A stretch of DNA of 64,000 nt from Lachnospiraceae bacterium (GTDB taxonomy: Bacteria > Bacillota > Clostridia > Lachnospirales > Lachnospiraceae). The position numbers and the translations under genes were made by a program. The stretch lies in NCBI GenBank assembly GCA_910575005.1, contig CAJTCL010000015.1, positions 14,038 to 78,037 of the forward strand. Reading direction: 5' to 3'. The notes under the pieces are model-generated. The model was not told the DNA's origin. It saw only the letters and a list, made by a program, of their open reading frames with translations, and searched no databases. Shown piece after piece: positions 29,851-62,367 of this stretch (within the stretch, counting starts at the first letter, position 1; each line of letters begins with the position of its first letter).

Positions 29851-30229
29851 TGCCCGAAAAGACTTAACAGACACTCTCCAGACCTGTTTTAGAGTTTGGA
29901 GGGATTTTTTTATGTTCTTTTTTCGGGCAGTTATCTATCTGCTCATGCAACGCAGATTTGATTTATACATAGCATATCGGGGAATGGCAGGAAGCCAGTT
30001 AAAAAAATCCCTGTCCATGCAACGCTACTTCTCACCATGAAACCAGAAGTAGGATCTCCGCTTAATAGAATTAGTATCACTTATAACCGTAGAGGTCACA
30101 GAGCCTTTGCGGTTTTTCTTTTGTCGTTTTTTATCAGATTATGCCGCAGGGCTGTTTCTGCTGTTGGCTGTCGCTCCCCGCCTCTCTCCATCTGGATTTC
30201 AGCATTTCAAAAATTCAGATGGGAGGTAC
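29851..30229 (+). promoter_or_regulatory. Structured leader with tandem terminators and a Shine-Dalgarno hairpin
   Basis: No gene occupies this stretch. TGCCCGAAAA (29851-29860) can pair with TTTTCGGGCA near 29920-29929, enclosing a terminator CTCCAGAC/GTTTGGAG plus a T-run. A second terminator is ACCGTAGAGG/CCTTTGCGGT (30086-30113) with Ts. Finally CTCCATCTG (30186-30194) pairs with CAGATGGGAG (30216-30225), burying the GGAGG used by the gene at 30235. The same order occurs before the sigma-like gene at 62376. Confidence 0.7.
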
Positions 30230-30234
30230 TTACG

Positions 30235-30750
30235 GTGAAGTATGCACCAAGAAAAGTATATATCAAAGAAAACAATGTCTATGTGGAGTTGTCCTATCGG
30301 GATTTCTGCCGCCGCAGGGAATCCGACCAGAGATACATGGACAAGCTGTTTATCCCAGTGCAGGGCTGTCTGCTTGAAGTCGTTCGGGAACAGTATGCAG
30401 ATTTCTATCGAGATAAAGAACGGTGGCGTTATCTGCAAAAGCTGGACACGAACCACAAGCTGCTGTCATTGGAGGGATTTACGGACAGTGAGGGAAATGT
30501 GATTGACTTCGTTGTTGATGAAGTGGTGGACGTTGCGGAAACCGTTGTCCGTGCGGTGATGGTGGACAGGCTGAAAGCCGCCTTGCTTTTGTTGTCGGAC
30601 AGTGAACAGACGTTGATAAAAGCAATCTTCTTTGAGGAACTTTCCGAGAGGGAAGTCGGGTTACGGTTAGGCGTTACACAGAGCGTTGTGAATAAGCGCA
30701 AATCCAAAATCCTTGCGAAGCTGAGAAAGATAATGGAAAACAAAATTTAA
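30235..30750 (+). CDS. Sigma-70-like transcription regulator of the IME
   Basis: A 171-residue protein whose C-terminal 60 residues form a sigma region-4 helix-turn-helix (LSDSEQTLIKAIFFEELSER, then GVTQSVVNKRKSKILAKLRK). The N-terminal part resembles the sigma-like regulators of Tn916-type elements. The GTG start at 30235 is eight bases after GGAGG, which is held in the leader hairpin. Likely controls element genes; promoter specificity cannot be read from sequence. Confidence 0.75.
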   Translation: MKYAPRKVYIKENNVYVELSYRDFCRRRESDQRYMDKLFIPVQGCLLEVVREQYADFYRDKERWRYLQKLDTNHKLLSLEGFTDSEGNVIDFVVDEVVDVAETVVRAVMVDRLKAALLLLSDSEQTLIKAIFFEELSEREVGLRLGVTQSVVNKRKSKILAKLRKIMENKI

Positions 30751-30757
30751 GGCGTTC

Positions 30758-30828
30758 AGCCCCCTTGTTTTTCCTTTGGGAAAATGAGGGGGCTTTTGTC
30801 TGCCCTCTCAATCAATTCAGATTGGAGG
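30758..30828 (+). promoter_or_regulatory. Terminator plus Shine-Dalgarno hairpin between sigma-like genes
   Basis: AGCCCCCT (30758-30765) pairs with AGGGGGCT (30787-30794), followed by TTTTG: a strong terminator. Next CTCAATC (30807-30813) pairs with GATTGGAG (30820-30827), which contains the GGAGG of the gene at 30837. This is the same two-hairpin pattern as in the upstream leader. Confidence 0.75.
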
Positions 30829-30836
30829 AAATAAGG

Positions 30837-31262
30837 ATGGCATACAACCATGGACGGGAGGACAGGAAATGGCGCATCTGGAAAGAAGCCGAGGAAAAGG
30901 TTCTGCGTGAGTGCGGCGTTGATGAAGAAACCATTGAGCAAATCCGCACAGACGACAGGGCAGATTTTAATTCCAACAGGCGGTTTTACCGATGGGCGAG
31001 CGACTTCGGCGAATACCTTGAGGGCATGGCGGACAGGGAGAAGCAGGCAGAGGTAAGGTCTGTTTCTGATTTACTGGACGAGATTGAGAGCGAAACTCTG
31101 TACCTTGCTTTAATCACGGTAGATAAACGCACGTTACAAATCGTCCTGCTGAAAATGCAGGGCTATTCCACTAAGGAGATTGCCCCGCTTGTGCATTTAA
31201 CGGCAGGGGCTGTCTATGCAAGGCTCAACCATCTGCGGAAGAAGCTGCGGAAAATTTTATAA
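30837..31262 (+). CDS. Sigma-70-like regulator, paralogue of the 62376 gene
   Basis: A 141-residue protein. It opens YNHGREDRKWRIWKEAEEK and ends with a sigma region-4-like helix-turn-helix (LQIVLLKMQGYSTKEIAPLV, ARLNHLRKKLRKIL). The ICE gene at 62376 encodes a clear paralogue (YGREEKKWRLWKEAEEKQLR, LQIIVMKMQGYSTHDIASLL), so both elements carry the same regulator type. The ATG at 30837 follows GGAGGAAATAAG. Confidence 0.8.
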   Translation: MAYNHGREDRKWRIWKEAEEKVLRECGVDEETIEQIRTDDRADFNSNRRFYRWASDFGEYLEGMADREKQAEVRSVSDLLDEIESETLYLALITVDKRTLQIVLLKMQGYSTKEIAPLVHLTAGAVYARLNHLRKKLRKIL

Positions 31263-31275
31263 GCGTCTCATATAT

Positions 31276-31338
31276 CCTGCTTTCCTATGGGCTATCTGGT
31301 GGGGAGAGAAAAACTCTCTCCTACTTTTTAGCAGGAGG
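31276..31338 (+). promoter_or_regulatory. Nested hairpin at the ribosome binding site of the third sigma-like gene
   Basis: CCTGCT (31276-31281) pairs with AGCAGG (31330-31335), enclosing GGAGAG/CTCTCC. The 3' arm runs straight into AGGAGGAAAGG, the ribosome binding site of the 31346 gene. There is no T-run, so this would act on translation or RNA stability rather than termination. Confidence 0.6.
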
Positions 31339-31345
31339 AAAGGAA

Positions 31346-31819
31346 ATGGCATACGGGGCAAAGACATACACGCTTCGGGAGGAATCCACGGAAAGCGGCA
31401 AAAGGTATTTTATCAGCTTTAAGGACGGGCAGGGCGAACACCAAGAACTAGAAGTGTCAGAACAGCTATTCATTGAATTTCGTCAGATGGAGCGCAGGAA
31501 CAGAAACCTTCAGCAATGGAATCAGCGGCACAGGGAGTTTAACGAGGTGTGGGACGAAACGCTTTACAGACGTGCGTTAAGAGTGCCTAAAACGCTTGAT
31601 GAAAGAATGATTGAAAAAGAACGGAATGAAGTGTTTTACAAAGCGGTTGCCCGACTGCCAGAGATACAAAGGCGGCGTTTCCTGCTCTATTACGAGTATG
31701 ATTTCAACTTCTACCAAATCGCAGAGATGGAGCATTGCACCGCTTCCGCTGTCCAGAAGTCCGTTTCGGTTGCAAGGGAGAAAGTCAAGGCGGAAATGAG
31801 GAAGTATCTCCAACCGTGA
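31346..31819 (+). CDS. Sigma-70-family regulator
   Basis: A 157-residue protein with a sigma region-4-type helix-turn-helix in the C-terminal third (LPEIQRRRFLLYYEYDFNFY, QIAEMEHCTASAVQKSVSVA). The middle is a basic helical stretch (MERRNRNLQQWNQRHREFNE). This family occurs in many Clostridia elements as a small sigma factor upstream of replication and mobilization genes. AGGAGGAAAGGA precedes the ATG. Confidence 0.8.
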   Translation: MAYGAKTYTLREESTESGKRYFISFKDGQGEHQELEVSEQLFIEFRQMERRNRNLQQWNQRHREFNEVWDETLYRRALRVPKTLDERMIEKERNEVFYKAVARLPEIQRRRFLLYYEYDFNFYQIAEMEHCTASAVQKSVSVAREKVKAEMRKYLQP

Positions 31820-31923
31820 CCGCCACCATCCGAAAAAGAAATCCGTTTTGCGTGGGATTGGCGGCATTACATACTCTCACTTCTTTTCGTGGGAGTAAAT
31901 TTATTTTAAGGAGGTCAACGCCT

Positions 31924-32010
31924 ATGCGTAACAAAACCAAAGACACCGCCCGAAAGGAGGAATCCCATGCAGAAGCTTCAGACAGTGGGCGCAGACACGC
32001 TCATCTATGA
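31924..32010 (+). CDS. 28-residue peptide overlapping repA
   Basis: ATG at 31924 with AAGGAGG eight to ten bases upstream encodes a polar, basic peptide starting MRNKTKDTARKEES. It overlaps the start of the RepA-like gene (31967) by 44 bases in another frame. The layout suggests coupling or control of RepA-like translation, not a structural protein. Confidence 0.4.
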   Translation: MRNKTKDTARKEESHAEASDSGRRHAHL

Positions 32011-33007
32011 GCCGCTTGAAAAGCCGTCTTTTGTGGTGGACGGTCTGATACCCACGGGCTTAACCCTGTTCTGCGGCGCACAGAAAATCGGCAAGAGCTG
32101 GCTCATGTTAAAGCTCTGCCTTTGCGTGTCGCAGGGAATCCCCTTGTGGGATATGCCCACACGAGAGGGCGACGTGCTTTACCTCTGCCTTGAGGACACG
32201 TTCTGCCGCATCCAGGACAGGCTGTTCCGCTTGACGGACGAAGCGAGCGGGCGGCTCCACTTTGCGGTGGCAAGTGATAAGCTGTCAGACGGTCTTATCG
32301 TGCAGTTGGAGGATTATTTAAAAGAATACCCCGACAGCAGGCTTATTGTCATTGACACCTTGCAGAAAGTCCGCACCGCATCCAAAGACAACGCCTATGC
32401 CAGCGATTACGGGGACATCTCCCTTATCAAAGACTTTGCTGACAGGCACTCTCTTGCGGTCATTGTCGTACACCACATCCGAAAGCAGAACGACAGCGAC
32501 GTGTTCAACAAAGTGTCTGGCACGACGGGATTGACGGGGAGTGCGGACGCAACCTTTGTTCTGGAACAGGAAAGCCGTGCGTCCAATGCCGCAAAGCTGT
32601 ATGTGACGGGCAGGGACACGCCCTATCAGGAGTTCACGCTCCGCTTCCGTGATTGCAGTTGGGAACTGGTGGAGAGGAAAGAGCAGGAACAGCTTGCTAG
32701 AGAAGCGATACCAGACGTTCTTTTTCGGCTGGTGGATTTCATGCAGGGCAAGGAGGAATGGACTGGAACTGCAACGGAATTACTGGACGCTCCGGGGGAA
32801 ACAGGGACAGCGGCGAATGTCTTGACAAAATGGATGAACGAGTACCGCCTTGACTTCCTGCTTGAAAACCATATCCGCTATGACTTCTGCCGCAAGAACA
32901 GCCACAGGCTGATTTCCCTTGCAAGGCAGGAGGGTACGGACGGTGACGGTCGTGACGATGGTGACGGTGTTTCTGGGATACCCCCTGCCGCTGTCACTGT
33001 CACCTAA
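31967..33007 (+). CDS. RepA-like RecA-fold ATPase (replicative helicase type)
   Basis: A 346-residue RecA-fold ATPase like the RSF1010 RepA/AAA_25 group. Walker A is GAQKIGKSW near residue 40, Walker B LIVIDTLQ near 125, and a conserved VVHHIRK follows. It probably unwinds DNA at the element's own origin. AAAGGAGG precedes the start. The last 25 codons (DGDGRDDGDG ... IPPA) are the first of three iteron blocks read as protein, so the gene and the origin overlap. Confidence 0.85.
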   Translation: MQKLQTVGADTLIYEPLEKPSFVVDGLIPTGLTLFCGAQKIGKSWLMLKLCLCVSQGIPLWDMPTREGDVLYLCLEDTFCRIQDRLFRLTDEASGRLHFAVASDKLSDGLIVQLEDYLKEYPDSRLIVIDTLQKVRTASKDNAYASDYGDISLIKDFADRHSLAVIVVHHIRKQNDSDVFNKVSGTTGLTGSADATFVLEQESRASNAAKLYVTGRDTPYQEFTLRFRDCSWELVERKEQEQLAREAIPDVLFRLVDFMQGKEEWTGTATELLDAPGETGTAANVLTKWMNEYRLDFLLENHIRYDFCRKNSHRLISLARQEGTDGDGRDDGDGVSGIPPAAVTVT

Positions 33008-33449
33008 GAAGCATGTGAATACGGCGGCTCTGGCTTATGCGTGACGGTCAGTGACGGTCGTGACGGTGTTTTTGGGATACCCCCTGTTGCTGTCGCTGTC
33101 ATAGCAAATGTATGTAAAATCGGCGGTTCTGCCCTACGGGAGAACACCCCGTAAACGCAAAGTGCAGGCGTGGGCATTACTCGCCCTTTTCGGCTCGTAA
33201 AGCCACCCCTGCGGTCAGAAAAATCTACTGATTTTTCCGACTGCGTTTACAGGGTGTAACACACTACACTTTGCCCTGCAAAGTCGTGTGCCAGACGTTC
33301 CCTCTGGACTCCCTTAAAGCAGGGCTTGCGCCCTGCCCCATCCTGCGCCTTACGGCTTCGGATGGAAGAATGTCGGCGTGAGAGTGACGGTTATGACTGG
33401 CGATAGGGGGTATCCCAAAATCACCGTCATCATCGTCATGACCGTCACG
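32943..33449. repeat. Three iteron blocks, each three 9-bp GTGACGGT units plus GGGATACCCCC
   Basis: Block 1 (32943-32984, direct) and block 2 (33041-33083, direct) carry three tandem GTGACGGT-like units 9-10 bp apart followed by TTTYTGGGATACCCCC. Block 3 (33407-33449) is the same unit in reverse orientation. The region between repA and the relaxase gene is otherwise non-coding. Iterons next to a RepA-like helicase are typical of a replication origin; the inverted third block brackets the oriT. Confidence 0.85.
33250..33293 (-). other. oriT: pMV158-like oriT of the IME
   Basis: Read on the minus strand, GCACACG is followed by the hairpin ACTTTGC-AGG-GCAAAGT and then GTAGTGTGTTACACC. The order and spacing match the pMV158 oriT (ACTTTAT hairpin, then TAGTGTG/TTA). 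The predicted nick is between 33260 and 33259 on the minus strand. The matching MobV relaxase starts 200 bp away. A second hairpin GAAAAATC-TACT-GATTTTTC and the inverted repeat GTAAACGCA/TGCGTTTAC flank it. Confidence 0.8.
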
Positions 33450-33488
33450 CATACAGATTACCCGCCGAAAGAAAAGAGGAATCATGCC

Positions 33489-34454
33489 ATGCCCTATGCA
33501 ATCCTGCGTTTCCAGAAACGCAAGGCAGGCGGCGTTGCGGCTTGTGAACGCCACAACGAGCGGAAGAAAGAAGCCTATAAAAGCAACCCAGATATTGATA
33601 TGGAACGCTCCAAGAATAACTATCATCTTGTGAAGCCGCCCCGCTACACCTACAAGAAAGAGATAAACCAAATGGTAAAAGAAGCGGGCTGTAAGGTAAG
33701 GAAAGACAGCGTGATGATGGTGGAAACACTCATCACCGCTTCGCCAGAATTTATGAACAGCCTACCGCCCGAAGAACAAAAAGCCTATTTCCAGACGGCT
33801 CTTGACTTCATTTCAGAGCGTGTGGGAAAGAAAAATATCCTTTCCGCAGTCGTCCATATGGACGAGAGGACGCCCCATATGCACCTATGCTTTGTGCCGC
33901 TTACGCCCGACAACAAGCTATCAGCGAAGTCTATTTTAGGCAACCAGAAATCCCTATCCGAATGGCAGACCGCCTACCATGAGCGGATGTCCGCACGGTG
34001 GGGCGAATTGGAAAGAGGTCAGTCCTCAATGGAAACGAAGCGGAAACACATCCCCACATGGCTCTATAAGTTGGGCGGCAGGCTGGATAAACAGTATGCG
34101 GAAATCGTGTCTGCCCTCTCCGACATCAACGCTTTTAACGCAGGAAAGAAAAGAGATAAGGCGTTAGAACTGCTCTCCGCATGGCTTCCAGACGTGGAGA
34201 AATTCTCAAAGGAAATCGGCAAACAGCAGGCGTATATCGACAGCTTGAAAGAGAGAATCGGGCAGGAATCCGACTATGCGGGGCGTATGCGTGATGAAAA
34301 GTACGAGCAGGAATTAAAGGTACAGAAAGCCAACCAGAGGATATTTGAGTTGCAGAGAACCAACGAGCAGATGGGGCGGCTGCTCTCCAAAATCCCGCCA
34401 GAGGTATTGGAAGAATTGCAGAAAAGCAATCGGAACAGAGCAAGAGAAAGGTAG
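33489..34454 (+). CDS. mobV: MobV-family relaxase
   Basis: A 321-residue Mob/Pre relaxase. The N-terminus (MPYAILRFQKRKAGGVAACE) leads to HNER with His22, matching the catalytic His22 of pMV158 MobM. The metal-binding motif is VVHMDERTPHMHLCFVPL near residue 118. The C-terminal 90 residues are coiled coil. It should cut the oriT at 33250-33293 and lead the strand into a helper conjugation channel. GAGGAA lies just before the ATG at 33489. Confidence 0.92.
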   Translation: MPYAILRFQKRKAGGVAACERHNERKKEAYKSNPDIDMERSKNNYHLVKPPRYTYKKEINQMVKEAGCKVRKDSVMMVETLITASPEFMNSLPPEEQKAYFQTALDFISERVGKKNILSAVVHMDERTPHMHLCFVPLTPDNKLSAKSILGNQKSLSEWQTAYHERMSARWGELERGQSSMETKRKHIPTWLYKLGGRLDKQYAEIVSALSDINAFNAGKKRDKALELLSAWLPDVEKFSKEIGKQQAYIDSLKERIGQESDYAGRMRDEKYEQELKVQKANQRIFELQRTNEQMGRLLSKIPPEVLEELQKSNRNRARER

Positions 34455-34462
34455 GAATGTGA

Positions 34463-35317
34463 ATGAAGAAACAGGATTTTAAGGTATTAAAGACCGCAGA
34501 CTTGTACCCGTTTCCCGACAACCCTTTCCATGTGGTGGAGGATGAAATGCTGTCAGAGTTGGCTGAAAGCATTAAGGAGTTTGGAATCGTAACGCCGATA
34601 ATCACACGCCCGAAAGAGGACGGCAACGGCTATGAAATCATTGCGGGACAGCGGCGTGTCCGTGCTTCCGAGCTTGCAGGGATAAACACAGTCCCCGCTT
34701 TTGTCCTGCCTTTAGACCGTGACAGGGCAATCATCACCCTTGTGGACAGCAACTTACAGCGTGAAAATATCCTGCCATCGGAGCGGGCGTTCGCCTACAA
34801 GATGAAATCCGAAGCCATGAAGCGGCAGGGTTTCCGCACGGATTTAACCTCGTCACAAGTTGGGACGAAGTTGCGGACGGACGATAAGGTGGCGCAGGGC
34901 TTCGGCGTTGGCAGGATGACCGTGCAGAGATTTATCCGCTTGACGGAGCTGATACCGCCGATTTTGCAGATGGTGGACGAGGGGAAAATCGCCCTCACGC
35001 CTGCGGTGGAGCTGTCCTTTTTGAAGAAAGGCGAGCAGAAAAATCTATTTGCCACGATGGAAAGCGAGGAAGCAACGCCCTCACTCTCACAGGCACAGCG
35101 GATGAAAAGCCTAAGCCAGAGCGGGCGGCTTGACATGGATATGATATTTTCCATTATGACCGAGGAAAAGGGAAACCAGAAAGAAACCGTGAAAATTGGC
35201 ATGGAAAGGTTAAAGAAATACTTCCCGAAAGGAACAACGCCCAAGCAGATGGAGGACACCATTATCAGACTTTTGGAGCGTGAATTGCAGAGGAAACGTG
35301 GCAGGGACAGCCGATAA
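34463..35317 (+). CDS. Orphan ParB-family protein of the IME
   Basis: A 284-residue ParB/RepB-type protein with AGQRRVRASELAGI and DSNLQRENILPSERAFAYKM, then a helix-turn-helix. It is closer to the ICE ParB (ESNLQRSVILPSEKAFAYKM) than to the chromosomal one. No ParA accompanies it on the IME. It may act as a regulator, use the ICE ParA, or bind element repeats. It begins nine bases after the relaxase stop. Confidence 0.88.
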   Translation: MKKQDFKVLKTADLYPFPDNPFHVVEDEMLSELAESIKEFGIVTPIITRPKEDGNGYEIIAGQRRVRASELAGINTVPAFVLPLDRDRAIITLVDSNLQRENILPSERAFAYKMKSEAMKRQGFRTDLTSSQVGTKLRTDDKVAQGFGVGRMTVQRFIRLTELIPPILQMVDEGKIALTPAVELSFLKKGEQKNLFATMESEEATPSLSQAQRMKSLSQSGRLDMDMIFSIMTEEKGNQKETVKIGMERLKKYFPKGTTPKQMEDTIIRLLERELQRKRGRDSR

Positions 35318-35361
35318 TTTTCTCTTTTCGGGAGGTAAGTACAGAAAGTTGAGGTAGGAGA

Positions 35362-35592
35362 ATGAATAAAATCCAGTACGAGATTGTAAAGGAAATCGCC
35401 GTGTTGTCGGCAAGCGGCAGCGGCTATACAAAGGAAATCAATTTAATCTCATGGAACGGGAAAGAGCCGAAGTATGACATCCGCAGCTTTTCCCCCAACC
35501 GTGAGAAGTGCGGAAAGGGAATCACGTTGACCGCTGATGAAGCGGCGGCTCTCCTTAAAGCATTGCAGGAAGAATTGAACAGCGGGGATTGA
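35362..35592 (+). CDS. PC4/YdbC-type ssDNA-binding protein
   Basis: A 76-residue protein matching the YdbC/PC4 group: YEIVKEIAVLSASGSGYTKE, LISWNGKEPKYDIRSF and GKGITLTADEA are signature positions. YdbC is a dimeric single-stranded nucleic-acid-binding fold. In this context it could protect or present ssDNA during rolling-circle replication or transfer. The preceding sequence has GAGGTAGGAGA. Confidence 0.75.
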   Translation: MNKIQYEIVKEIAVLSASGSGYTKEINLISWNGKEPKYDIRSFSPNREKCGKGITLTADEAAALLKALQEELNSGD

Positions 35593-35663
35593 TTGTGTCT
35601 GATTGGCAGGGAGGGGACGTTTCCAGACGCTCCCCTGCCCTGTCTGGAAAGGAAGATTTGAGT

Positions 35664-35855
35664 ATGGGCGAGGATAAAAAAGCAAACAAAAAGAAAAAGC
35701 GTATTGTGGCAAGACAGCCAGTGCAGATGATTGTCAGCCGTGAATATGTCGGCACACAGACCGTTGCTGAAGCATTCATCCCGATTATCTCCGAGGACAT
35801 CCGAAAGAGCATTACAGAAAATGACACCTTCGACAATGAGGATATATCCGCTTAG
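35664..35855 (+). CDS. Small basic protein upstream of the recombinase
   Basis: A 63-residue protein with a lysine-rich start (MGEDKKANKKKKRIVARQ) and a conserved-looking core (MIVSREYVGTQTVAEAFIPI). A longer frame begins at 35589, but only the ATG at 35664 has GGAAG close by. Proteins of this kind often precede large serine recombinases in Clostridia elements. Role unknown; an accessory or directionality factor is possible. Confidence 0.6.
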   Translation: MGEDKKANKKKKRIVARQPVQMIVSREYVGTQTVAEAFIPIISEDIRKSITENDTFDNEDISA

Positions 35856-35909
35856 AATGTACGCAATGGAACATGAAAACAGTTAGGGCAGATACGGAGG
35901 TTTTACAGT

Positions 35910-53893: not shown

Positions 53894-54298
53894 ATGTCAG
53901 AGATAAGGTTTCGCAACGCAGCCCACCGTGATTTTTTTCTGGAAAACATGATGAAATGCAAAGTCAACGACTGTTATCACAGGGCATTTTTCTATGTGAT
54001 GGGGATTGCAGAGGAAACAAGGAAAAATATCAATTCCATGTTCAACTTTAAGACAGACTGCATTGAGCCAGAGGGGATGCACGCAGGGTGGCAGACAAGC
54101 GGCACAGTCAAGGTCTGCAACCTTGCCTTTAACCTCTGGAACGGCTACGCAGAGGAGGGGCGTGAGAAATATTCCACGCCAGAGGAATTGTTCTGCTGCG
54201 AGTTTGCCCCGTATTTCATGGAGGGCATCAAGGTAAGGTATCCCGAATATTGCAGGGATTTACCTGTCCCTAAAAAGCAGACGGAGCATACACGGTAA
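53894..54298 (+). CDS. DUF6075 family protein
   Basis: A 134-residue protein matching the DUF6075 pattern: RFRNAAHRDFFLENMMKCKV, YHRAFFYVMGIAEETRKNI and WQTSGTVKVCNLAFNLWNGY. Family members are small proteins of Firmicutes mobile elements and phages; function unknown. It begins four bases after virB4 with GGAGGTG upstream. Confidence 0.8.
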   Translation: MSEIRFRNAAHRDFFLENMMKCKVNDCYHRAFFYVMGIAEETRKNINSMFNFKTDCIEPEGMHAGWQTSGTVKVCNLAFNLWNGYAEEGREKYSTPEELFCCEFAPYFMEGIKVRYPEYCRDLPVPKKQTEHTR

Positions 54299-54327
54299 AT
54301 AAAAAATAGCAAAGAAAGGATATGCCT

Positions 54328-55113: not shown

Positions 55114-55151
55114 CATGACCGCAAATCCTCTGGGAAAGGAGGTCGGTGTTT

Positions 55152-56951
55152 ATGGCTGATATAAAGACCAGAGATGCGGTCAAAGGCACGATAAAGACCC
55201 TTGACAAAGCTGCCATTGCAGAGGAACGCATGAAGTCCGCCTATGCAAAGACAAAGGATAAGGCAGAGCAGGGATATTACGCAGAGGAAAATTGCCCCAC
55301 AGAATATGCTTCTGATAAGGTTTCCCATGTTTCTGGGCGTATCAAAGATGAGGGAATCCACCAATTTAATAAACAGGGGCAAAGGAGCGTTACGACCACA
55401 AAAGAGAATATCAGTAAAGCAAAGGATAAAATCGCTGATTTTAAGACTAAGCGTGCGGCAAAAGCCGCAGAGCAGAAAAAGGCACAGGCTGTTGCAGAAC
55501 AGAACGGCTCGCTGATCCGAAACGGGGCAGCGAGCCGTTCTCCTGTCCCCGATGTTCCCAAGCAGGGAGAAATGCCCCAGACCCAGACAGGGGCAAGCCA
55601 GTTGATAAAGACAAGACAGAAGGGGAAAAAGACCATCAAGACCACAGCCAGAAATGCGGAGAGAACCGTCAAGACCACAGCAAAAGGGACGGTCAAGGCG
55701 ACGGAAAAAGGCGTAAAAACCGCAAAGGCGACATCAAAGACGGCGATTAAGACCACGGGGCAGACCGCAAAGGCGGCACAGAAAACGGCGAAAGCATCTG
55801 CCAAAGCCGCCCAGAAAACAGCACAGACCGCAAAAGCCACGGCAAAGGCGACAGCCGAAGCAACGAAAGTCACGGTCAGAGCCACCATTGCTGCGGTTAA
55901 GGCAATCATAGCAGGGACGAAAGCCCTTATTTCTGCGATAATCGCAGGCGGTTGGGTTGCCGTATTGATAATCCTTATCGTCGTCCTGCTTGGGTGTGCC
56001 GTTTCCCTGTTCGGCGGCGGTAGCGACAGCACTTCTTATACCCCTGTCAGTGCGGAAGTGGAAGCCTACACGCCGCTGATACAGAAGTATGCGAAGCAGT
56101 ACGGCATCCCCGAATATGTGGAGCTTATAAAAGCGGTGATGATGCAGGAATCTGGGGGAAAGGGCAGCGACCCGATGCAGGCGGCGGAGGGGAGCTTCAA
56201 CAAAAAGTACCCCCATGAGCCGAACGGCATCAAAGACCCCGAATATTCCATTGAGTGCGGCGTGCAGGAATTAAAAGCCGCCCTTGTATCCGCCGAGGTG
56301 GAAAGCCCGATTGATATGGAGCGTATCAAGCTCGCCTTGCAGGGCTATAACTTCGGCAACGGCTATATCTCATGGGCAAAGACCAACTACGGCGGCTATT
56401 CCTATGCAAATGCGGTGGAATTTTCCGCTATGCAGGCGGCACGTCTGGGTTGGGAAAAGTATGGCGACACGCAGTACCCCGCCCATGTGTTACGCTATTA
56501 CCCATACGGACGGGCATTTACAAGCGGCGGCAACCAAGCCATTGTAGAGGTTGCCTTGACGCAGCTCGGCAATGAGGGCGGACAGCCTTATTGGAGCTGG
56601 TATGGATTTGACGGGCGTGTGGAATGGTGTGCCTGTTTTGTTTCGTGGTGCAGTGAACAGTGCGGCTATCTGGAAAGCGGCATCATCCCGAAGTTTTCCC
56701 TCTGTTCGGACGGCGTGGACTGGTTCAAAGGAAAAGGACAATGGCAGGATAAGAACTATGAGCCGCAGGCAGGCGACCTTATTTTCTTTGATTGGGGAAA
56801 TGACGGCTCAATCGACCATGTGGGAATCGTGGAGAAATGCGAGAATGGAACGGTCTACACCGTGGAGGGCAATTCTGGGGATGCCTGCAGGCAGCAGAGC
56901 TATCCAGTCGGGAGCAGCTCAATCTACGGTTACGGAGTTCCACAATATTAA
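55152..56951 (+). CDS. Bifunctional lysozyme/CHAP wall hydrolase (CD1108 type)
   Basis: A 599-residue transfer hydrolase. Residues 1-250 are a Lys/Thr/Ala-rich disordered region (KTAKATSKTAIKTTGQTAKA); a membrane helix follows (about 265-290, VAVLIILIVVLLGCAVSLFG); then a lysozyme-like domain (YGIPEYVELIKAVMMQESGG) and a C-terminal CHAP/NlpC-type peptidase with Cys in EWCACFVSWCSEQ, His in IDHVGIV and GNSGD. It locally opens the wall for the mating channel. AAAGGAGG precedes the ATG at 55152. Confidence 0.9.
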   Translation: MADIKTRDAVKGTIKTLDKAAIAEERMKSAYAKTKDKAEQGYYAEENCPTEYASDKVSHVSGRIKDEGIHQFNKQGQRSVTTTKENISKAKDKIADFKTKRAAKAAEQKKAQAVAEQNGSLIRNGAASRSPVPDVPKQGEMPQTQTGASQLIKTRQKGKKTIKTTARNAERTVKTTAKGTVKATEKGVKTAKATSKTAIKTTGQTAKAAQKTAKASAKAAQKTAQTAKATAKATAEATKVTVRATIAAVKAIIAGTKALISAIIAGGWVAVLIILIVVLLGCAVSLFGGGSDSTSYTPVSAEVEAYTPLIQKYAKQYGIPEYVELIKAVMMQESGGKGSDPMQAAEGSFNKKYPHEPNGIKDPEYSIECGVQELKAALVSAEVESPIDMERIKLALQGYNFGNGYISWAKTNYGGYSYANAVEFSAMQAARLGWEKYGDTQYPAHVLRYYPYGRAFTSGGNQAIVEVALTQLGNEGGQPYWSWYGFDGRVEWCACFVSWCSEQCGYLESGIIPKFSLCSDGVDWFKGKGQWQDKNYEPQAGDLIFFDWGNDGSIDHVGIVEKCENGTVYTVEGNSGDACRQQSYPVGSSSIYGYGVPQY

Positions 56952-57022
56952 AAGAGATGCCATCCGTTATGGGTGGCATCTAAATACATAATTGGAAACT
57001 ATAAAGCATATAGCTTGTTATG

Positions 57023-57304
57023 TTATCCTTCTGATTTGCGTTCTATTTCATGACGGTAAAAATCAATTTTATCGTCCAATTTTGCCATGTGTTCCTGCAA
57101 TACTTTTATCTGTACATTAAGGGATTCACGATGCACAGTCAGCATTTCCATTCTTTCATTAAGGGTAAGGTCGCCTTTCGCCCGCAGTTCGGCACAATGC
57201 TGTATCTTTTTTAGATTATTTTTCGTCAAAATCACAATATAAAATTGAACAAAAAATGCGTCTTTTTTGCAATGATTTCCATTCATGCGTTTATTCTGAT
57301 TCAA
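57023..57304 (-). pseudogene. C-terminal fragment of a MerR-type regulator
   Basis: The only minus-strand gene remnant. KIQHCAELRAKGDLTLNERM and LNVQIKVLQEHMAKLDDKID are the end of the effector arm and the dimerisation coiled coil of MerR regulators. The usual N-terminal helix-turn-helix is missing; the first 30 residues (FFVQFYIVILTKNN) are unlike the family. It was probably truncated when the TetR-ABC block was added. Confidence 0.6.
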
Positions 57305-57317
57305 TTATGAAATGCCC

Positions 57318-57373
57318 TTGACAAAATTGTAGGTTAGAGCTATAATTTTGAATACATACACATGTATGTACTT
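57318..57373 (+). promoter_or_regulatory. Promoter and operator of the tetR-type gene
   Basis: TTGACA (57318-57323) and TATAAT (57341-57346) are 17 bp apart. Directly downstream, AATACATACA then CAT then GTATGTACTT (57351-57373) is an almost symmetric operator that matches the 58084-58106 copy except for the three central bases. Bound repressor would block initiation. Confidence 0.85.
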
Positions 57374-57385
57374 GGAGGTGATAAA

Positions 57386-58036
57386 ATGCCGCGCCATGAT
57401 CCAGACCAAAAAACAAAACAGGATATATTGGAAACTGCAATGCACCTTTTTACAGAAAAAGGAATAGAGAATGTGAATATTGAAGATGTTGTAAAAGAAG
57501 TTGGAGTAACCCGTGGAGCTTTTTACCATTACTTCAAATCTAGAGAAGAATTGATTTCGGGTGTCATTTATAAGTCTTTCAATGACAACAATCCATTTAT
57601 CCTTGCTAATAAGCAAGAGGGTCTGAATGCACTTGAAAAGCTGCGTTTTGTATTCAAACTTGATTTACGTCCTCGTTTGGATATGGACGATACTTTGAAA
57701 AGTGATATGCAAAAATTGGGAGATAACCCTATTATCTTTAAGAATGAGTTGCTTACCCAAATAAATGTAGTGGCTCCCCATGTGGAAAGATTATTGACTG
57801 AGGGAAACAAAGATGGTTCACTCTCTGTTAAATATCCAAAGCAAACAGCACAGGTTATTTCTTTATTGGTATCTTCGTGGTTAGACATATTTACTTTTCA
57901 GGTGTCTTATTCTGAATATGCTGATAAGGTATCATTTCTTGAACTGTTAGGGAAATTATTAGGCGTACCCTTTATGGATAAGGAAATGAAAGAACTGTTT
58001 TTAGAAATAGGCAAAGTGCAATTTGAAGCGAAATAG
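57386..58036 (+). CDS. TetR-family transcriptional repressor
   Basis: A 216-residue regulator with an N-terminal helix-turn-helix (IEDVVKEVGVTRGAFYHYFK) and a variable ligand domain. I choose ATG at 57386 because GGAGG is seven bases upstream; an in-frame ATG at 57362 lies inside the operator. Two operators flank the gene, implying autoregulation and control of the downstream transporter. Confidence 0.9.
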   Translation: MPRHDPDQKTKQDILETAMHLFTEKGIENVNIEDVVKEVGVTRGAFYHYFKSREELISGVIYKSFNDNNPFILANKQEGLNALEKLRFVFKLDLRPRLDMDDTLKSDMQKLGDNPIIFKNELLTQINVVAPHVERLLTEGNKDGSLSVKYPKQTAQVISLLVSSWLDIFTFQVSYSEYADKVSFLELLGKLLGVPFMDKEMKELFLEIGKVQFEAK

Positions 58037-58040
58037 AAAT

Positions 58041-58080
58041 CTTTAATTTTACTGCCTGCGATAGGGCAGTAAAATTAAGG
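58041..58080. terminator. Long hairpin after the TetR gene
   Basis: CTTTAATTTTACTGCC pairs with GGCAGTAAAATTAAGG across a short loop, 5 bp after the stop. There is no strong T-run downstream on the plus strand, but the A/T-rich arms could terminate in either direction. It separates the repressor from the transporter promoter region. Confidence 0.6.
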
Positions 58081-58083
58081 TTA

Positions 58084-58106
58084 AATACATACATACGTAT
58101 GTACTT
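58084..58106. promoter_or_regulatory. Operator of the ABC transporter, twin of 57351-57373
   Basis: AATACATACA then TAC then GTATGTACTT; the core TACATACGTATGTA (58090-58103) is a perfect palindrome. It lies 18 bp before the ATPase start and shares 20 of 23 bases with the site before the repressor. Confidence 0.85.
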
Positions 58107-58123
58107 AAAATAAGGAGGACAAT

Positions 58124-58960
58124 ATGACTGACAATATGATTGTAGTTTCAGACCTAAAAAAATCTTTCAAGATAAACCGTGTTTTGAGAAATGTTACTTT
58201 TACTGTTCGTAAAGGTAGCATCTTTGCATTGCTTGGCTCAAACGGAGCAGGAAAAACAACAGTCGTTAAAATCCTTTCTACGTTAATGAAGCCTGACAGT
58301 GGCAATGTAACGATTAACGGACTTGATGTAGTTCGTCAAGGATATTATGTGCGTGAGTGCATTAGTCTGACAGGGCAATTCACAGCGGTAGATGAAGTTT
58401 TGACAGGTAGAGAAAATCTAAATCTTATCGGACAGCTTAAACGTCTGAACGGTGTCAAAAACAAGGTGAACGAATGGTTGTCTTTCTTCCATTTGCAGGA
58501 CGCAGCAGACAGAAAAGTATCTACTTATTCTGGAGGTATGCGCCGCAGATTAGATATAGCCATGAGCCTTATGGGAAAGCCACAAATTATTTTTCTTGAT
58601 GAACCTACCACAGGACTTGACCCTCAAAATCGTATCGCTATGTGGGATTTGGTAAAAGAATTAGCTGTCGGAGGAACGACGGTATTCCTTACTACACAGT
58701 ATTTGGAAGAAGCAGAGTATCTTGCGGATTATATCGCCATTCTTCATGGTGGTAAGATACTTGCGGAGGGGACACCGCAATACCTCAAAACAATAATGCC
58801 GCATCGCGGCGCACAACTCAATTTTCAAAGTGAAGAACAAGCAGCCGAAGCAATGGCATTATTAAATGAGAACGGTATAACGATTGAAAGCTTTGAGCAG
58901 AAACTTCCCTCTTTGGAAGATGTGTTTTTAGCGTTGACTGATGAAAAAGGAGGAAAATAA
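58124..58960 (+). CDS. ABC transporter ATPase (DrrA-like)
   Basis: A 278-residue ATPase: GSNGAGKTT (Walker A) near residue 38, YSGGMRRRL signature, IIFLDEPTTGLDP (Walker B), and a C-terminal extension (MALLNENGITIESFEQKLPS) typical of DrrA-like daunorubicin/multidrug exporters. It pairs with the next gene's permease. AAGGAGG precedes the start. Expression is expected to rise when TetR leaves the operator at 58084. Confidence 0.9.
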   Translation: MTDNMIVVSDLKKSFKINRVLRNVTFTVRKGSIFALLGSNGAGKTTVVKILSTLMKPDSGNVTINGLDVVRQGYYVRECISLTGQFTAVDEVLTGRENLNLIGQLKRLNGVKNKVNEWLSFFHLQDAADRKVSTYSGGMRRRLDIAMSLMGKPQIIFLDEPTTGLDPQNRIAMWDLVKELAVGGTTVFLTTQYLEEAEYLADYIAILHGGKILAEGTPQYLKTIMPHRGAQLNFQSEEQAAEAMALLNENGITIESFEQKLPSLEDVFLALTDEKGGK

Positions 58961-58962
58961 TC

Positions 58963-59733
58963 GTGCATAAACTCAAAGGTATATCATTTCTTGACTCTTG
59001 GATAATGTTCAAACGCTGCCTGCTTATTTCTTTGCGAAACCCCGAAGCATTGTTGATGGCAACAATAACACCGTTCTTTTTGATGCTCTTGTTTGGAACG
59101 GTATTTGGGAATATAGCAGATGTGGGAAGCCTAAACTACATTGATTTTATTGTGCCGGGGATTATTATGCAAAGTCTTGGACAGGCTTCTCAACACTCGG
59201 CAATGAACGTTGCAACAGATATGACAAAAGGCATAATAGACCGTTTCCGTTCTATGTCAATTTCAAAATCTGCCGTACTGATAGGTCATACTGGTGCGGG
59301 AGTAGTGAGGAATACAATTTCAAGCACCGTAATCATTATTACCGCCTTTGTCCTTGGTTTTCGACCACATGGCGGTTTTGTGGATTGGCTTATTGTTGTA
59401 GCCTTGCTTACCTTAGTAAATATTGCGATTTCATTGATTGCTGTATTATGTGGACTAATTTCAAAAACACCAGAAGGCTCCAGCGGTTTAATGTTCCCAC
59501 TCTTTATTTTGCCTTTCATCAGTTCCGGCTTTGCTCCTACTGATACCATGTCTGGCGGTATTAGGTGGTTTGCAGAAATACAGCCTATGACACCGATTAT
59601 TGACAGTATTCGTGCCTTGACGCTTGGCTTGCCTTTGGGGAACAGCTTGTGGATAGCTCTTGCTTGGTGCATAGCAATAATTATAATTGCGTTTACCGCA
59701 GCAGCACAAGTTTATAAGCGCAGACTATCATAG
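58963..59733 (+). CDS. ABC-2 permease (DrrB-like)
   Basis: A 256-residue membrane protein with six helices and the ABC-2 signatures (LISLRNPEALLMATITPFFL, YIDFIVPGIIMQSLGQ, PFISSGFAP). GTG start at 58963 with AAGGAGG upstream; begins two bases after the ATPase stop. Substrate unknown; drug efflux is the usual assignment for this pair with a TetR regulator. Confidence 0.88.
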   Translation: MHKLKGISFLDSWIMFKRCLLISLRNPEALLMATITPFFLMLLFGTVFGNIADVGSLNYIDFIVPGIIMQSLGQASQHSAMNVATDMTKGIIDRFRSMSISKSAVLIGHTGAGVVRNTISSTVIIITAFVLGFRPHGGFVDWLIVVALLTLVNIAISLIAVLCGLISKTPEGSSGLMFPLFILPFISSGFAPTDTMSGGIRWFAEIQPMTPIIDSIRALTLGLPLGNSLWIALAWCIAIIIIAFTAAAQVYKRRLS

Positions 59734-59834
59734 GTACATTATACCTTTTACGTAATTTTTTATAACAGTTTTATATATTCACATATGGAGAGAACTTTAT
59801 AAGATATATAAATAACAGGAAAGGAGTATATTGC

Positions 59835-60161
59835 ATGGTTTTTAACACAGGTGCGGCATTGCTGGATGCCGTTGTGCTGGCTATGATATCCCATGAGCCA
59901 GAGGGTACATACGGGTATAAGATTACACAGGAGGTACGGCAGGTCATTGAGATTTCCGAATCTGTGCTGTATTCAGTTCTGCGCAGGTTACAGAAAGATG
60001 AGTGTCTGGAAGTGTACGATATGGAATGTATGGGGCGCAACAGGCGTTACTACAGGATTACGGAGAAAGGAAGAACACAGCTTAATCCGTATATTAGCGA
60101 GTGGTATCGGTATTCTGCCAAATTGAACGGTATCTTTGAGGGATGTTTAAGGAATGAATAG
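59835..60161 (+). CDS. PadR-family transcriptional regulator
   Basis: A 108-residue winged-helix protein: LLDAVVLAMISHEPEGTYGY, then SVLYSVLRRLQKDECL and RYYRITEKGRTQL. PadR proteins usually precede a DUF1700 membrane partner, and the overlapping fragment at 60154 is that partner's start. AAAGGAG precedes the ATG at 59835. Confidence 0.88.
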   Translation: MVFNTGAALLDAVVLAMISHEPEGTYGYKITQEVRQVIEISESVLYSVLRRLQKDECLEVYDMECMGRNRRYYRITEKGRTQLNPYISEWYRYSAKLNGIFEGCLRNE

Positions 60162-60234
60162 AACAGAATTTATGAGCAAACTGTCGGCTCTGCTTGGTGA
60201 TGTACCGTTTACGGAGTTGGAAAAGGCAATATAA
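60154..60234 (+). pseudogene. N-terminal fragment of a DUF1700 protein
   Basis: NRTEFMSKLSALLGDVPFTE and a few more residues match the conserved N-terminus of DUF1700 proteins, then the frame stops at 26 residues. The remainder is missing; the next ABC operon begins 26 bp later. It overlaps the PadR gene by eight bases, as in intact PadR-DUF1700 pairs. Confidence 0.65.
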
Positions 60235-60260
60235 TATTCAAAATACAAGGAGGAAATCTA

Positions 60261-60989
60261 ATGTCAACAGAACAAGCCATTCACACGAAAGGATTATGCA
60301 AATCCTTTGGAAAAAATGAGGTGCTTCGTAAATGCTCATTAACCGTAGAAAAAGGAACAATATATGGCTTTTTGGGTATCAATGGAGCAGGAAAAACAAC
60401 TATGTTCAAAATACTAACCGGCTTATTAACACCTACTTTGGGCGAGATTCAAGTATTGGGAAAAGATATTACAGTACAGAAAGCTGATATGTTACGGCAT
60501 ATCGGCAGTATGATTGATGCTCCTGTTTTTTACGAACATTTATCAGCAAGAGAAAACCTAAACATACATCTTGCCTATATGGGTGTTAAAAAAGCCGATA
60601 CAGAAACGACCTTATCCAAAGTTGGATTGCAGAGCGTCGGCAATCAGCCCGTTTCGGAGTTTTCACTTGGTATGAAGCAACGTTTGGCTATTGCACGTGC
60701 TATGGTACATCAGCCTAAACTGCTTATACTAGACGAGCCTGTTAATGGGCTTGACCCCGTAGGTATTCGTGAAATGCGTGATTTATTCAAAAGCCTTGTA
60801 GAAAAGGACGGAATAACTATTCTTTTTTCAAGTCATATTTTATCTGAGGTAGAACATATAGCGGATAAAATCGGTATCATTTCAAATGGTGTGATTGTGC
60901 GGGAAATGACATTGCAAGAATTGAAAAAAGACAGCTCATTTAACCTTGAAGAATATTTCATTTCGATTGTGAAAGAGGGGGAAAGATAA
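60261..60989 (+). CDS. ABC transporter ATPase
   Basis: A 242-residue ATPase resembling bacitracin/lantibiotic-type exporters: GINGAGKTT (Walker A) near residue 38, EFSLGMKQRLAIA signature, LLILDEPVNGLDP (Walker B), SSHILSEVEHIADK. It resembles the IME ATPase at 25117 in general layout. AAGGAGG precedes the ATG. It overlaps the next gene by one base. Confidence 0.88.
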   Translation: MSTEQAIHTKGLCKSFGKNEVLRKCSLTVEKGTIYGFLGINGAGKTTMFKILTGLLTPTLGEIQVLGKDITVQKADMLRHIGSMIDAPVFYEHLSARENLNIHLAYMGVKKADTETTLSKVGLQSVGNQPVSEFSLGMKQRLAIARAMVHQPKLLILDEPVNGLDPVGIREMRDLFKSLVEKDGITILFSSHILSEVEHIADKIGIISNGVIVREMTLQELKKDSSFNLEEYFISIVKEGER

Positions 60990-61711
60990 TGTTGAATTTG
61001 ATAAAACTTGAAATTAAGCGTAACCGATTGAAAGGCTACATAACTGCGGGACTTTTAATTACAGTTGCAGTATTAGGTCTTGTTTACTTATTTGCTGCAA
61101 TACCACATCTTGACGCTTCTGATACAGATGTTCAGATATTTATTACATATAACGGCATAGCCACCTTATCGTTAGTTGTTGCTACGGCTTGCTTTTCTAT
61201 CTTATCGTCGGCAATGTATAACAGATTTATTGTTGAAGAATATGCAAGCAAAAAAGTTTTTTTGCTTTTCTCATACCCTGTTAAGCGAAGCCGAGTATTA
61301 TTGGCAAAAGTTATAACTGTATTTTTGTTTACATTTGTTTCCATGCTGTTTAGCGGCGTGATTACTTTTGTAATATTCTTTACCACCGAAGCGTTTGTTC
61401 CTATTTGTCAAGAAGCTATAACAATGTCAACGCTATTCGGGGTCGCAATATCGCTTATTGCTTACTCTATAATAGCTGCTGCATTGGCGGTAATATCTTT
61501 GTGGTTTGGATATTGGAAAAAATCCGCTTCTGTAACAATTATAGTGGGCGTGATTGTTTCATGTGTTTTCGGTAGCTTTGCGTCTGAAATCCTTTTAGCA
61601 GGAGGGGTATTTAACAACGTGATTGTTTTTGTAATTGCGGCGGCAAGCATATTAGTTGCTTTCATTTTGACAACAGCACTCTCCCAAAAAATCAGCACTA
61701 TGGAGGTGTAA
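60989..61711 (+). CDS. ABC-2 type permease
   Basis: A 240-residue six-helix permease (ITAGLLITVAVLGLVYLFAA; later VTIIVGVIVSCVFGSFAS). It lacks the LanE/LanG features seen in the IME cargo and has a single partner ATPase. Substrate unknown. Start overlaps the preceding stop (TAATG). Confidence 0.85.
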   Translation: MLNLIKLEIKRNRLKGYITAGLLITVAVLGLVYLFAAIPHLDASDTDVQIFITYNGIATLSLVVATACFSILSSAMYNRFIVEEYASKKVFLLFSYPVKRSRVLLAKVITVFLFTFVSMLFSGVITFVIFFTTEAFVPICQEAITMSTLFGVAISLIAYSIIAAALAVISLWFGYWKKSASVTIIVGVIVSCVFGSFASEILLAGGVFNNVIVFVIAAASILVAFILTTALSQKISTMEV

Positions 61712-61745
61712 TGCTTTCAATTTGGACGAAAAACGAGGATTTGCT

Positions 61746-61934
61746 ATGATGGCTGAACAATGGTTATTATGCCCAGTATGTGGCAACAAAACCCGTGATA
61801 AAATTAGGGAGGATACGGTTTTAAAAAACTTTCCCCTCTTTTGCCCTAAATGTAAACATGAAACGCTTGTAAATGTGAAACAACTGAATCTAACAATTAT
61901 TCAAGAGCCAGCCGCTAAGCCGCAGAGCCGATGA
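61746..61934 (+). CDS. Cysteine-rich KTR family protein
   Basis: A 62-residue protein with the family hallmark CPVCGNKTRDKIREDTVLKN, FPLFCPKC and ETLVNVKQLN. Two CxxC pairs form a probable zinc ribbon. KTR proteins are abundant on Tn916/Tn1549-type elements. ATG at 61746; the second ATG one codon on is equally possible. Confidence 0.85.
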   Translation: MMAEQWLLCPVCGNKTRDKIREDTVLKNFPLFCPKCKHETLVNVKQLNLTIIQEPAAKPQSR

Positions 61935-61996
61935 ACTTGTGAGAAATTACAGTTTATCGACTCTGTCTTTATGTAAACACAGGCAGGACAAGCACA

Positions 61997-62367
61997 CCGA
62001 ATAAAAAAACGATGTTTCGGTGAGCTGATTTGTCATGTTTTGAAATCTTTCCGACTTCGCTTTTTTGAAGTTCGGAGGGATTTTTTTGCCTGTAAGCAGC
62101 GACTTCTACTTACATATACCATATAAAGTATGGACGGATAACCCGTTAAAAAGAATCCTTGTCAACACAAGGGGGTTTTGCACCAAACAAGTAGAAGTAA
62201 AATCTCTATATATCAGAACTAAAATATCTATAAACCGTAAAGGTCTAAAAGCCTTTGCGGTTTTTCTTTTGTCGATTTTTGCAGGAATACGCTATAAGGC
62301 GGTTTCTGGCATTGGATGCCGTTCTCCACCTCTCAATCTGGATTTTCAAAAAAATTCAGATTGGAGG
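61997..62367 (+). promoter_or_regulatory. Structured leader of the ICE sigma-like gene
   Basis: No gene here. Hairpins in order: CACCGAA/TTTCGGTG near 61998-62021; a terminator CCGACTTC/GAAGTTCGG with a seven-T run near 62050-62088; ACCGTAAAGG/CCTTTGCGGT (62234-62261) with five Ts; and CTCAATCTG/CAGATTGGAG (62332-62366), which buries the GGAGG of the gene at 62376. The order mirrors the IME leader at 29851-30229 with compensating base changes. Confidence 0.7.

Follow-up and report, generated by a model that had tools for sequence, protein, structure and literature searches.

The stretch of Lachnospiraceae bacterium DNA analysed here, referred to below as the window, comprises 64,000 nucleotides (nt) of assembly GCA_910575005.1 (contig CAJTCL010000015.1, positions 14,038 to 78,037 of the forward strand). 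It carries an integrative and mobilizable element (IME) and an integrative and conjugative element (ICE), and in each a leader precedes a gene for a sigma-like protein. The strongest selective signal in these leaders and their relatives is a translated upstream open reading frame (uORF) that traverses an intrinsic terminator, T2, and ends in Cys-Arg-Ser-Pro-Pro (CRSPP). From the sequence we read the leader as a SecM/ApdA-like attenuator, in which an arrest peptide would control region-4 sigma-like regulators of ICEs and IMEs, and we put the probability of this reading at about 0.74. The uORF with its Arg-x-Pro-Pro (RxPP) end is well supported by its evolution, and a role as an arrest switch would follow from the properties of the motif together with the anatomy of the leader.

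Anatomy of the two leaders

The IME and ICE leaders are homologous. Their alignment has in common a hairpin with a run of A in its loop (H0), a hairpin followed by a run of T (T1), the terminator T2 and a hairpin that hides the Shine–Dalgarno (SD) sequence of the sigma-like gene. An earlier note on this DNA had described, in both leaders, a T-run terminator, a second terminator and an SD-hiding hairpin, and we find them in that order and at the same coordinates (all features given here are on the plus strand). H0, which is kept in alignments, lies at 29811–29842 in the IME and at 61995–62022 (− 8.7 kcal/mol) in the ICE. T1, at 29874–29911 and 62046–62087, respectively, was not called by the terminator scan, though it folds in RNAfold at − 15.4 kcal/mol in the IME and − 20.3 kcal/mol in the ICE. 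T2, of the form ACCGTARAGGT../..CCTTTGCGGT followed by a T-run, is called terminator-like by the scan in both leaders (30085–30114 and 62232–62263). The SD hairpin, CTC(C/A)ATCTG../..CAGAT(G/T)GGAGG, occupies 30184–30226 (− 19.7 kcal/mol) in the IME and 62332–62367 (− 22.9 kcal/mol) in the ICE.

What the earlier note had missed is that the interval from T2 to the SD hairpin is coding. In the ICE, the 3′ arm of T1 contains GGAGGG (62074–62079), which is the SD of a uORF of 94 codons (62086–62370). It starts with TTG at 62086 and runs in a single frame through T2 to a TAG (62368–62370) adjoining the SD of the sigma-like gene. Residues 78–82 are CRSPP, encoded by TGC CGT TCT CCA CCT at 62317–62331. 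In the IME, the GGAGGG of the T1 3′ arm doubles as the SD of a first frame of 42 codons, uORF1 (29912–30040), whose TGA overlaps the ATG of uORF2 as ATGA. This second frame (30037–30183 to the second Pro codon) traverses T2, reaches CRSPP, a putative ribosome-arrest motif, in the codons TGT CGC TCC CCG CCT (30169–30183) and here continues in phase into the sigma-like gene.

Coding evidence for the CRSPP frame

The loci behind the count of CRSPP were selected by a 25-base stretch of T2 and not by CRSPP itself; the tally of motif and frame covers the 100 unique sequences among 131 leaders. Where the T2 5′ arm is intact, CRSPP is present in 82 of 84 unique leaders; where it is not, CRSPP is present in 12 of 16 (Fisher p = 0.0056). 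This comparison is suggestive only, as the 16 include truncated and divergent leaders as well as leaders with insertions. Parsimony places 149, 127 and 240 changes at codon positions 1, 2 and 3, respectively, over the 27 codons that extend from the T2 3′ arm as far as Pro-Pro (97 unique sequences). Within the CRSPP codons, 78 of 86 inferred substitutions fall at the third position (binomial p = 1.3e-28), the changes at positions 1/2/3 being 0/1/18 for TGC, 1/1/13 for CGT, 1/2/26 for TCT, 1/0/13 for CCG and 1/0/8 for CCN. The remaining plus frames have no such third-position bias. The frame-by-frame codon statistics were taken from 92/93 leaders with equal spacing (70 unique).

Two features place the coding on the plus strand. 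The CRSPP frame is open over 49 codons (147 nt) in 79 of the 80 leaders with the T2 5′ arm, whereas the other plus frames are open in 2 and 0 and the minus frames in 27, 22 and 4; this openness chooses the plus strand over the minus. Moreover, the Ser codon alternates between TCN and AGY (L025 and L243; loci of our collection are given as L-numbers) and the Arg codon between CGN and AGR, switches of codon class that keep the residue on the plus strand only.

The residues preceding CRSPP are variable; seven rows of that comparison look like mis-hits to H0. A sequence AFAVFLLS is conserved in the uORF, yet the same DNA forms the T2 3′ arm and T-run. By hydropathy only, the ICE peptide has a hydrophobic segment late in its length (maximum 15-residue value 2.22) and that of L309 has one at residues 17–31 (2.51). 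The idea that CRSPP belongs to an N-terminal extension of the sigma-like protein was rejected: the frames join in the IME, but not in many other leaders.

Position of the motif and the SD hairpin

In 92 of the 93 CRSPP leaders scored, the second Pro codon ends 4–6 nt 5′ of the AUCUG in the SD stem. A ribosome with the first Pro codon in its P site has a footprint that reaches about ten bases past the second Pro codon. On this geometry, it would cover most of the 5′ arm of the SD hairpin. The stem both covers the SD of the downstream gene and adjoins the codons of the putative arrest.

T2 and the SD hairpin are paired in 96.7% of cells in an alignment of 46 diverse leaders, with double-sided changes in 9 cells belonging to 3 pairs. 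None of 500 shuffles reached 9 cells or the observed covariation score, 36 reached 3 pairs and 32 the pair types. On a tree-aware, R-scape-like null, in which substitutions are redistributed on the tree, no pair had E ≤ 0.05 (97 sequences; also with 37 and 28). Covariation within T2 and the SD hairpin is therefore not significant in the close family, an outcome that the earlier note had named as refuting its proposal, and does not support the RNA switch for which the note had invoked it. The compensating exchange of C/A with G/T that had been pointed out is a real change of C-G to A-U between the two leaders, but a C-U mismatch occupies that pair in about 11 of 93 leaders (4 of the 97 were left out of this tally). 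Sequences of the close family vary too little for covariation to show; it is the distant leaders, whose arms are unrelated yet self-complementary, that support the SD hairpin. RNAalifold on an alignment of mixed families gave little. Membership of an Rfam family was also rejected, the matches in the leaders being below threshold (the trpB motif RF04312 scored 23.3 and 22.5 bits, its cut-off being 59). In five loci (L310–L314), the loop of the SD hairpin holds an insertion of about 45–60 nt that contains a palindrome of its own, and RxPP is kept in all five (RPPP in L310, RSPP in the other four).

Recurrence of RxPP in distant leaders

That the leader recurs was borne out by a covariance model of the T2-to-SD interval, built from 46 leaders, which matched 19 of 29 genomes of the genus, at up to 16 places each, and 19 of 391 genomes of the class. 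The weak matches to this model have the same plan with different sequences. L300 and L302 read SRAPP before arms of the type CCAGUCUUGAAUUU../..AAAUUUCAAGACUGG, and L303 and L276 read SRAPP before similar arms. L307 and L309 have HCRSPP, L243 spells its Ser as AGT, L249 has CRDPP, L253 has CRSPP in GC-rich DNA, and L310 is the RPPP locus mentioned above; L319 and L322 read FCSPP and CCSPP. Among 40 weak matches, L287, L288, L289, L292, L293, L296, L306 and L316, several of these eight being broken off earlier, show no RxPP at this place, and neither does L250, a further weak match.

Since CRSPP is part of the sequence of the model, so that its matches could be biased, loci were also sought by protein. 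A search of 291 genomes of the class with the sigma-like protein of L245 gave 22 matches, 18 of which have R(S/A)PP before an SD hairpin. Six of these places are also matches to the model, and the motif is present in 12 of the remaining 16; the stems of the leaders found in this way differ widely. The four without the motif are L345–L348, of which L346–L348 lie side by side in one genome, as later members of a gene row headed by a gene with an RSPP leader. Among five matches to the protein of L302, L352 has RAPP and L353 is the same place as L339 (RSPP).

In all loci collected, 1,429 open reading frame (ORF) starts have an SD-like sequence, and 155 of them have R(S/A/G/D/P)PP, the set of motifs counted, 36–64 nt upstream. 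The motif is RSPP in 149, RAPP in 5 and RDPP in 1, with no RGPP or RPPP, and is written in 47 codon spellings; Cys precedes it in 143. The 155 are starts, so that alternative starts of one gene may count twice; they represent 133 distinct sequences of motif plus segment and fall in 9 protein clusters. All but one (L110) of the segments from Pro-Pro to the start were folded, and all 154 had z < − 2 (30 shuffles each), with a median of − 15.8 kcal/mol and 15 pairs. At least two of the four SD bases are paired in 120 of the 154.

The motif is closely tied to sigma-like genes, as 153 of the 155 starts lie in sigma-like clusters (two of them fused to other sequence), and the other 2 are a single XRE locus. 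Outside the set of ORFs defined as sigma-like by blast, 3 starts among 1,096 ORFs carry the motif, all with the same leader (L139, and L054 twice, before the XRE gene). None of the 155 starts was found to belong to a sec or yidC gene. A further 181 ORFs labelled sigma-like by blast without RxPP are unusable as a rate, because the 45 examples listed contain internal starts, PemK ORFs and genes in second or third place.

Entry into the CRSPP frame

The start of the uORF was tallied in the 89 of 131 leaders that have both T1 and a start. As in the ICE, the T1 3′ arm supplies the SD, and in other leaders the start codon lies 10–14 nt after the first base of GGAGGG. In IME-type leaders, this SD serves the 42-codon uORF1 in another frame, whose stop overlaps the ATG or TTG of the CRSPP frame. 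Such overlaps are seen in 43 of the 89 leaders (ATGA in 31, TTGA in 12). A slippery heptamer, A AAA AAA (A7), is also conserved in IME-type leaders, and in the ICE an extra base in the A-run merges the two frames into one. Entry into the CRSPP frame of IME-type leaders may take place by re-initiation at ATGA or by a − 1 frameshift at A7. Neither a universal start codon nor a universal frameshift at A7 was borne out; the MRW/MCW leaders end uORF1 before A7, and L047 and L167 have A6. In 8 of 24 distant leaders, an ATG that has an SD-like match lies 29–91 codons before Pro-Pro; examples of the distance from ATG to Pro-Pro are 73 codons in L309, 82 in L339, 83 in L302, 62 in L337 and 50 in L249.

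GGGAU7, the stretch of T1 formed by the end of the SD and the T-run, is complementary to a conserved sequence A7UCC, which reads A5GAAUCC in the ICE, the partners being 29901–29911 with 30001–30011 in the IME and 62077–62087 with 62148–62158 in the ICE. Such a pairing is possible as a long-range lock on uORF1.

A model for the leader and its alternatives

A mechanism consistent with these features would run as follows. A ribosome would load on the uORF at the SD in the T1 3′ arm, as the two leaders of the window suggest, and its passage through T2 should disrupt the terminator hairpin. At C-R-S-P-P, the nascent RSP chain would slow or prevent its own transfer onto the second Pro, in the manner of RxPP arrest peptides. 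The stalled ribosome would then cover the 5′ arm of the SD hairpin and free GGAGG, so that the sigma-like regulator could be translated. If the uORF were not translated, T2 would end the RNA and the SD would remain hidden. We infer the arrest, the direction of its effect and the role of the regulator in starting the transfer programme. R-x-P-P near the 3′ end of the uORF is conserved at the amino-acid level; these systems probably work like SecM/ApdA, a class to which they would belong if the ribosome does arrest.

The earlier note had proposed a conserved RNA switch. That the leader is switch-like, with hairpins whose order is kept before sigma-like regulators, stands; significant covariation in favour of a switch made of RNA was not found. 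The near-synonymous evolution of CRSPP and the presence of R(S/A/D)PP before unrelated SD hairpins point to a translating ribosome, rather than a ligand-binding RNA, as the more plausible sensor. A switch of RNA only, with a ligand or protein shifting the pairing of T1, T2 and the SD hairpin and the ORF incidental, thus seems to us very improbable. It could draw on the retention of the hairpins in 96.7% of cells with few double changes and on the complementarity of A7UCC to GGGAU7 of T1, but the tree-aware null gives no significant covariation, the leaders contain no match to an Rfam family at its gathering score, and the evolution and recurrence of the motif across unrelated RNA sequences would be left unexplained.

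Translational coupling without arrest deserves more weight, although we consider it unlikely. Ribosomes travelling along the uORF would abolish T2 and open the SD hairpin, and CRSPP would count only for its slow Pro-Pro codons or be irrelevant. This would suit the many leaders in which the end of the uORF is close to the sigma-like gene, at it or in phase with it, as in the IME where the frame runs on into it, and the stop/start overlaps in 43 of 89 leaders. Coupling needs no fixed Cys-Arg-Ser, however, yet these codons change almost only synonymously; R-(S/A/D)-PP recurs in unrelated leaders, and the position of the uORF stop relative to the SD of the sigma-like gene varies widely. Least probable, by a little, is that RxPP arrest acts mainly on transcription, through access of Rho or through T2, and not on the SD hairpin. 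T2 does lie within the uORF, and the CruR uORF of Bordetella, with RAPP, is described as governing Rho-dependent termination (PMC9426467), but from the T2 stem it is about 54 nt to the Cys codon and about 63 nt to the first Pro codon, too far for a stalled ribosome to cover the stem, whereas the spacing to the SD arm is tight.

Several observations weigh against arrest-peptide control. One minus-strand frame, with a common wobble position, comes close behind the CRSPP frame (synonymous 0.34 versus 0.355, mean BLOSUM 1.26 versus 1.66), so that codon statistics alone leave the strand unfixed. No codon selection was found in the CRSPP frame over the 37 codons before T2, nor codon-level constraint in uORF1. 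In L009-type leaders the frame is interrupted by a stop 16 codons before T2, and in 9 of the 24 distant leaders there is no in-frame ATG and no SD-supported GTG or TTG (last ten codons excluded). The two leaders with an intact T2 5′ arm that lack CRSPP read CHSPP (L151) and CRSSP (L205), three of the five matches to the L302 protein have no RxPP, and weak model matches may favour CRSPP-like DNA. Fewer than two of the four SD bases are paired in 34 of the 154 folded segments. As to the motif, RxPP alone is reported to be insufficient for arrest, RSPP variants of ApdA/ApdP to be weaker than RAPP (PMC7897499) and most RAPP-like proteins tested from Escherichia coli and Bacillus subtilis not to stall (PMC10987492).

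Relation to known systems

In translational attenuators of the ermC/cat type, a stalled ribosome frees a masked SD, and the leaders are short and drug-dependent. For the motif itself, published work reports that RxPP with x = Ser, Ala, Gly or Pro stalls ribosomes, RSPP being partly active in ApdA/ApdP (PMC7897499), that stalling occurs with RAP in the P site (PMC10951233), and that RSPP and RDPP are permissive and under-represented in proteomes, RxPP being particularly reduced in Bacillota (PMC12992588). ApdA, ApdP and the RQH family are the nearest in plan: a uORF ending in R-x-P-P, RSPP included, lies 5′ of a gene, with an intergenic stem in one that was tested (PMC7897499, PMC10987492, PMC10951233, PMC12992588). 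They were sought before sec/yidC or as RAPP/RGPP proteins, with RSPP among the query motifs (PMC10987492), and are typically small secretory or membrane proteins, whereas the leaders here have mostly RSPP, an intrinsic terminator inside the uORF and a sigma-like gene of a mobile element downstream. SecM of E. coli likewise arrests near the end of its uORF and so opens a stem that hides the SD of secA, but with RAGP, as a secretion monitor and, in the passages available, with no terminator in the uORF (PMC10987492). Streptomyces lividans SLIV_33595/33605 are alike in that RAPP/RGPP arrest peptides precede ECF (extracytoplasmic function) sigma genes; they are described as predicted four-transmembrane proteins (PMC12992588), in contrast to ICE/IME leaders before region-4-type proteins. 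CruR shares the control of downstream expression by an RxPP uORF and differs by a copper-sensing CXXC and Rho termination (PMC9426467) in place of an intrinsic terminator and SD hairpin. In Tn916, translation inhibitors partly relieve attenuation at tet(M), and terminators guard the ICE operon, with canT antitermination; its leader peptide orf12 precedes tet(M) and not a sigma-like gene, canT lies between orf8 and xis, and the passages available mention no RxPP (PMC9154091, PMC11658703). In the titles and abstract openings of the papers listed on arrest peptides with conjugative elements, on CRSPP/RSPP and on Tn916/Tn1549 regulation, the subscription literature being thinly covered, the leader was not found described.

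To our knowledge, little is known of how ICEs and IMEs decide to express their regulators, and these elements carry tet(O), tet(40) and other cargo. If the arrest-peptide reading is right, a stalling-peptide switch would be a specific sensor heading the regulatory programme, RxPP arrest peptides would extend from protein secretion to the control of mobile elements, and the state of translation, for example under ribosome-targeting antibiotics, is predicted to affect element activation. The RSPP, RAPP and RDPP uORFs also form a large natural set with varied upstream sequences for studies of arrest. A broader scheme is tentative, and we would rather doubt that it holds in full: ICEs and IMEs of Clostridia would gate their regulatory programme by nascent-chain arrest, upstream cargo would feed transcription of the leader, and synthesis of the regulator would require a ribosome that follows through T2 and then arrests at RxPP. 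Transfer would in this way be tuned to the translation state (as set, for example, by ribosome-targeting drugs), and in IME-type leaders the − 1 frameshift at A7 might add a further gate.

Regulated genes and cargo

The first gene downstream encodes a sigma-like protein of 171 residues in the IME (30235–30750, GTG start, Pfam Sigma70_r4) and of 142 residues in the ICE (62376–62804, Sigma70_r4_2). Region 4 is the only sigma domain above the Pfam cut-off in either, although the broad NCBIfam sigma70-ECF model passes its cut-off for the IME protein. Most proteins of related leaders are above a Pfam region-4 cut-off, that of L302 being below it (19.5 versus 25.7 bits), and no region-2 Pfam model was found among 12 sigma-like proteins scanned. 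With region 4 and no region 2, we regard them as sigma-like regulators and not as complete sigma factors.

The IME has three such genes in a row, the second at 30837–31262 and the third at 31346–31819. The sequence TTCAGATKGGAGG, sought with up to one mismatch, occurs three times in the window, every copy exact, while none of 100 shuffles had three copies (mean 0.17). The third copy, at 30816–30828, is the shorter version of the leader that had been noticed before the gene at 30837; it belongs to a terminator (30758–30794) and SD hairpin spanning 30758–30828, with no RxPP by eye. Before the gene at 31346, the terminator scan calls a terminator-like hairpin at 31301–31321. Promoter scans gave counts near the shuffle means and were uninformative. 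The IME also encodes a Mob_Pre relaxase, a ParB and a serine recombinase, and the ICE a CD1115-type VirD4. A pemK RNA (RF02913) lies at 63057–63134, 5′ of the PemK toxin gene that directly follows the sigma-like gene of the ICE.

Upstream of 103 leaders, the longest ORF of at least 150 residues points towards the leader in 87 and away from it in 6, the other 10 having shorter ORFs. This cargo is diverse: 14 fall in the cluster that contains the annotated tet(O) of L012, and other proteins, judged from their sequences by eye, we take to resemble ABC-F, MATE and MFS proteins. By analogy with Tn916, transcription of the cargo may feed the leader. Between the cargo operon and the IME leader lies a terminator-like hairpin of 12 pairs (29709–29737), which would allow only partial read-through. 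An inverted repeat AGAGCCGATGAAC../..GTTTATCGACTCT at 61924–61964, probably a cargo terminator, recurs just 5′ of H0 in many leaders.

Distribution of the leader

The host genome has 12 places similar to the ICE leader, and matches to it were found in 17 of 150 genomes of the family. The 25-base T2 stretch occurs at least 118 times in named genome contigs; among the 80 matches listed, most are from Lachnospiraceae and other Clostridia, with Streptococcus, Veillonella and Varibaculum also represented. It is further found in seven plasmid records and one phage record, in none of which an annotated feature lies under the match, the plasmid gene tables being incomplete (one record has three features in all). 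In five records that were opened, the leader is 3′ of tet(O), a tet(O) mosaic, tet(40) or a cysteine-rich KTR gene. In plasmids, tblastn searches for relatives returned 5 and 8 records. On a Salmonella IncC plasmid (L012), a tet(O) segment with part of the leader and a truncated sigma-like gene lies beside IS26.

In the genome analysed here, an IME of about 8.2 kb is inserted in the T2 of a leader (L223:2431–10616) with GACAGCCTTTGC at both ends. It encodes a large serine recombinase, a MobA/VirD2-like relaxase, a ParB and a sigma-like gene. A foreign junction of the same kind is present in ten leaders, and from these sequences the T2 stem looks like an integration site.

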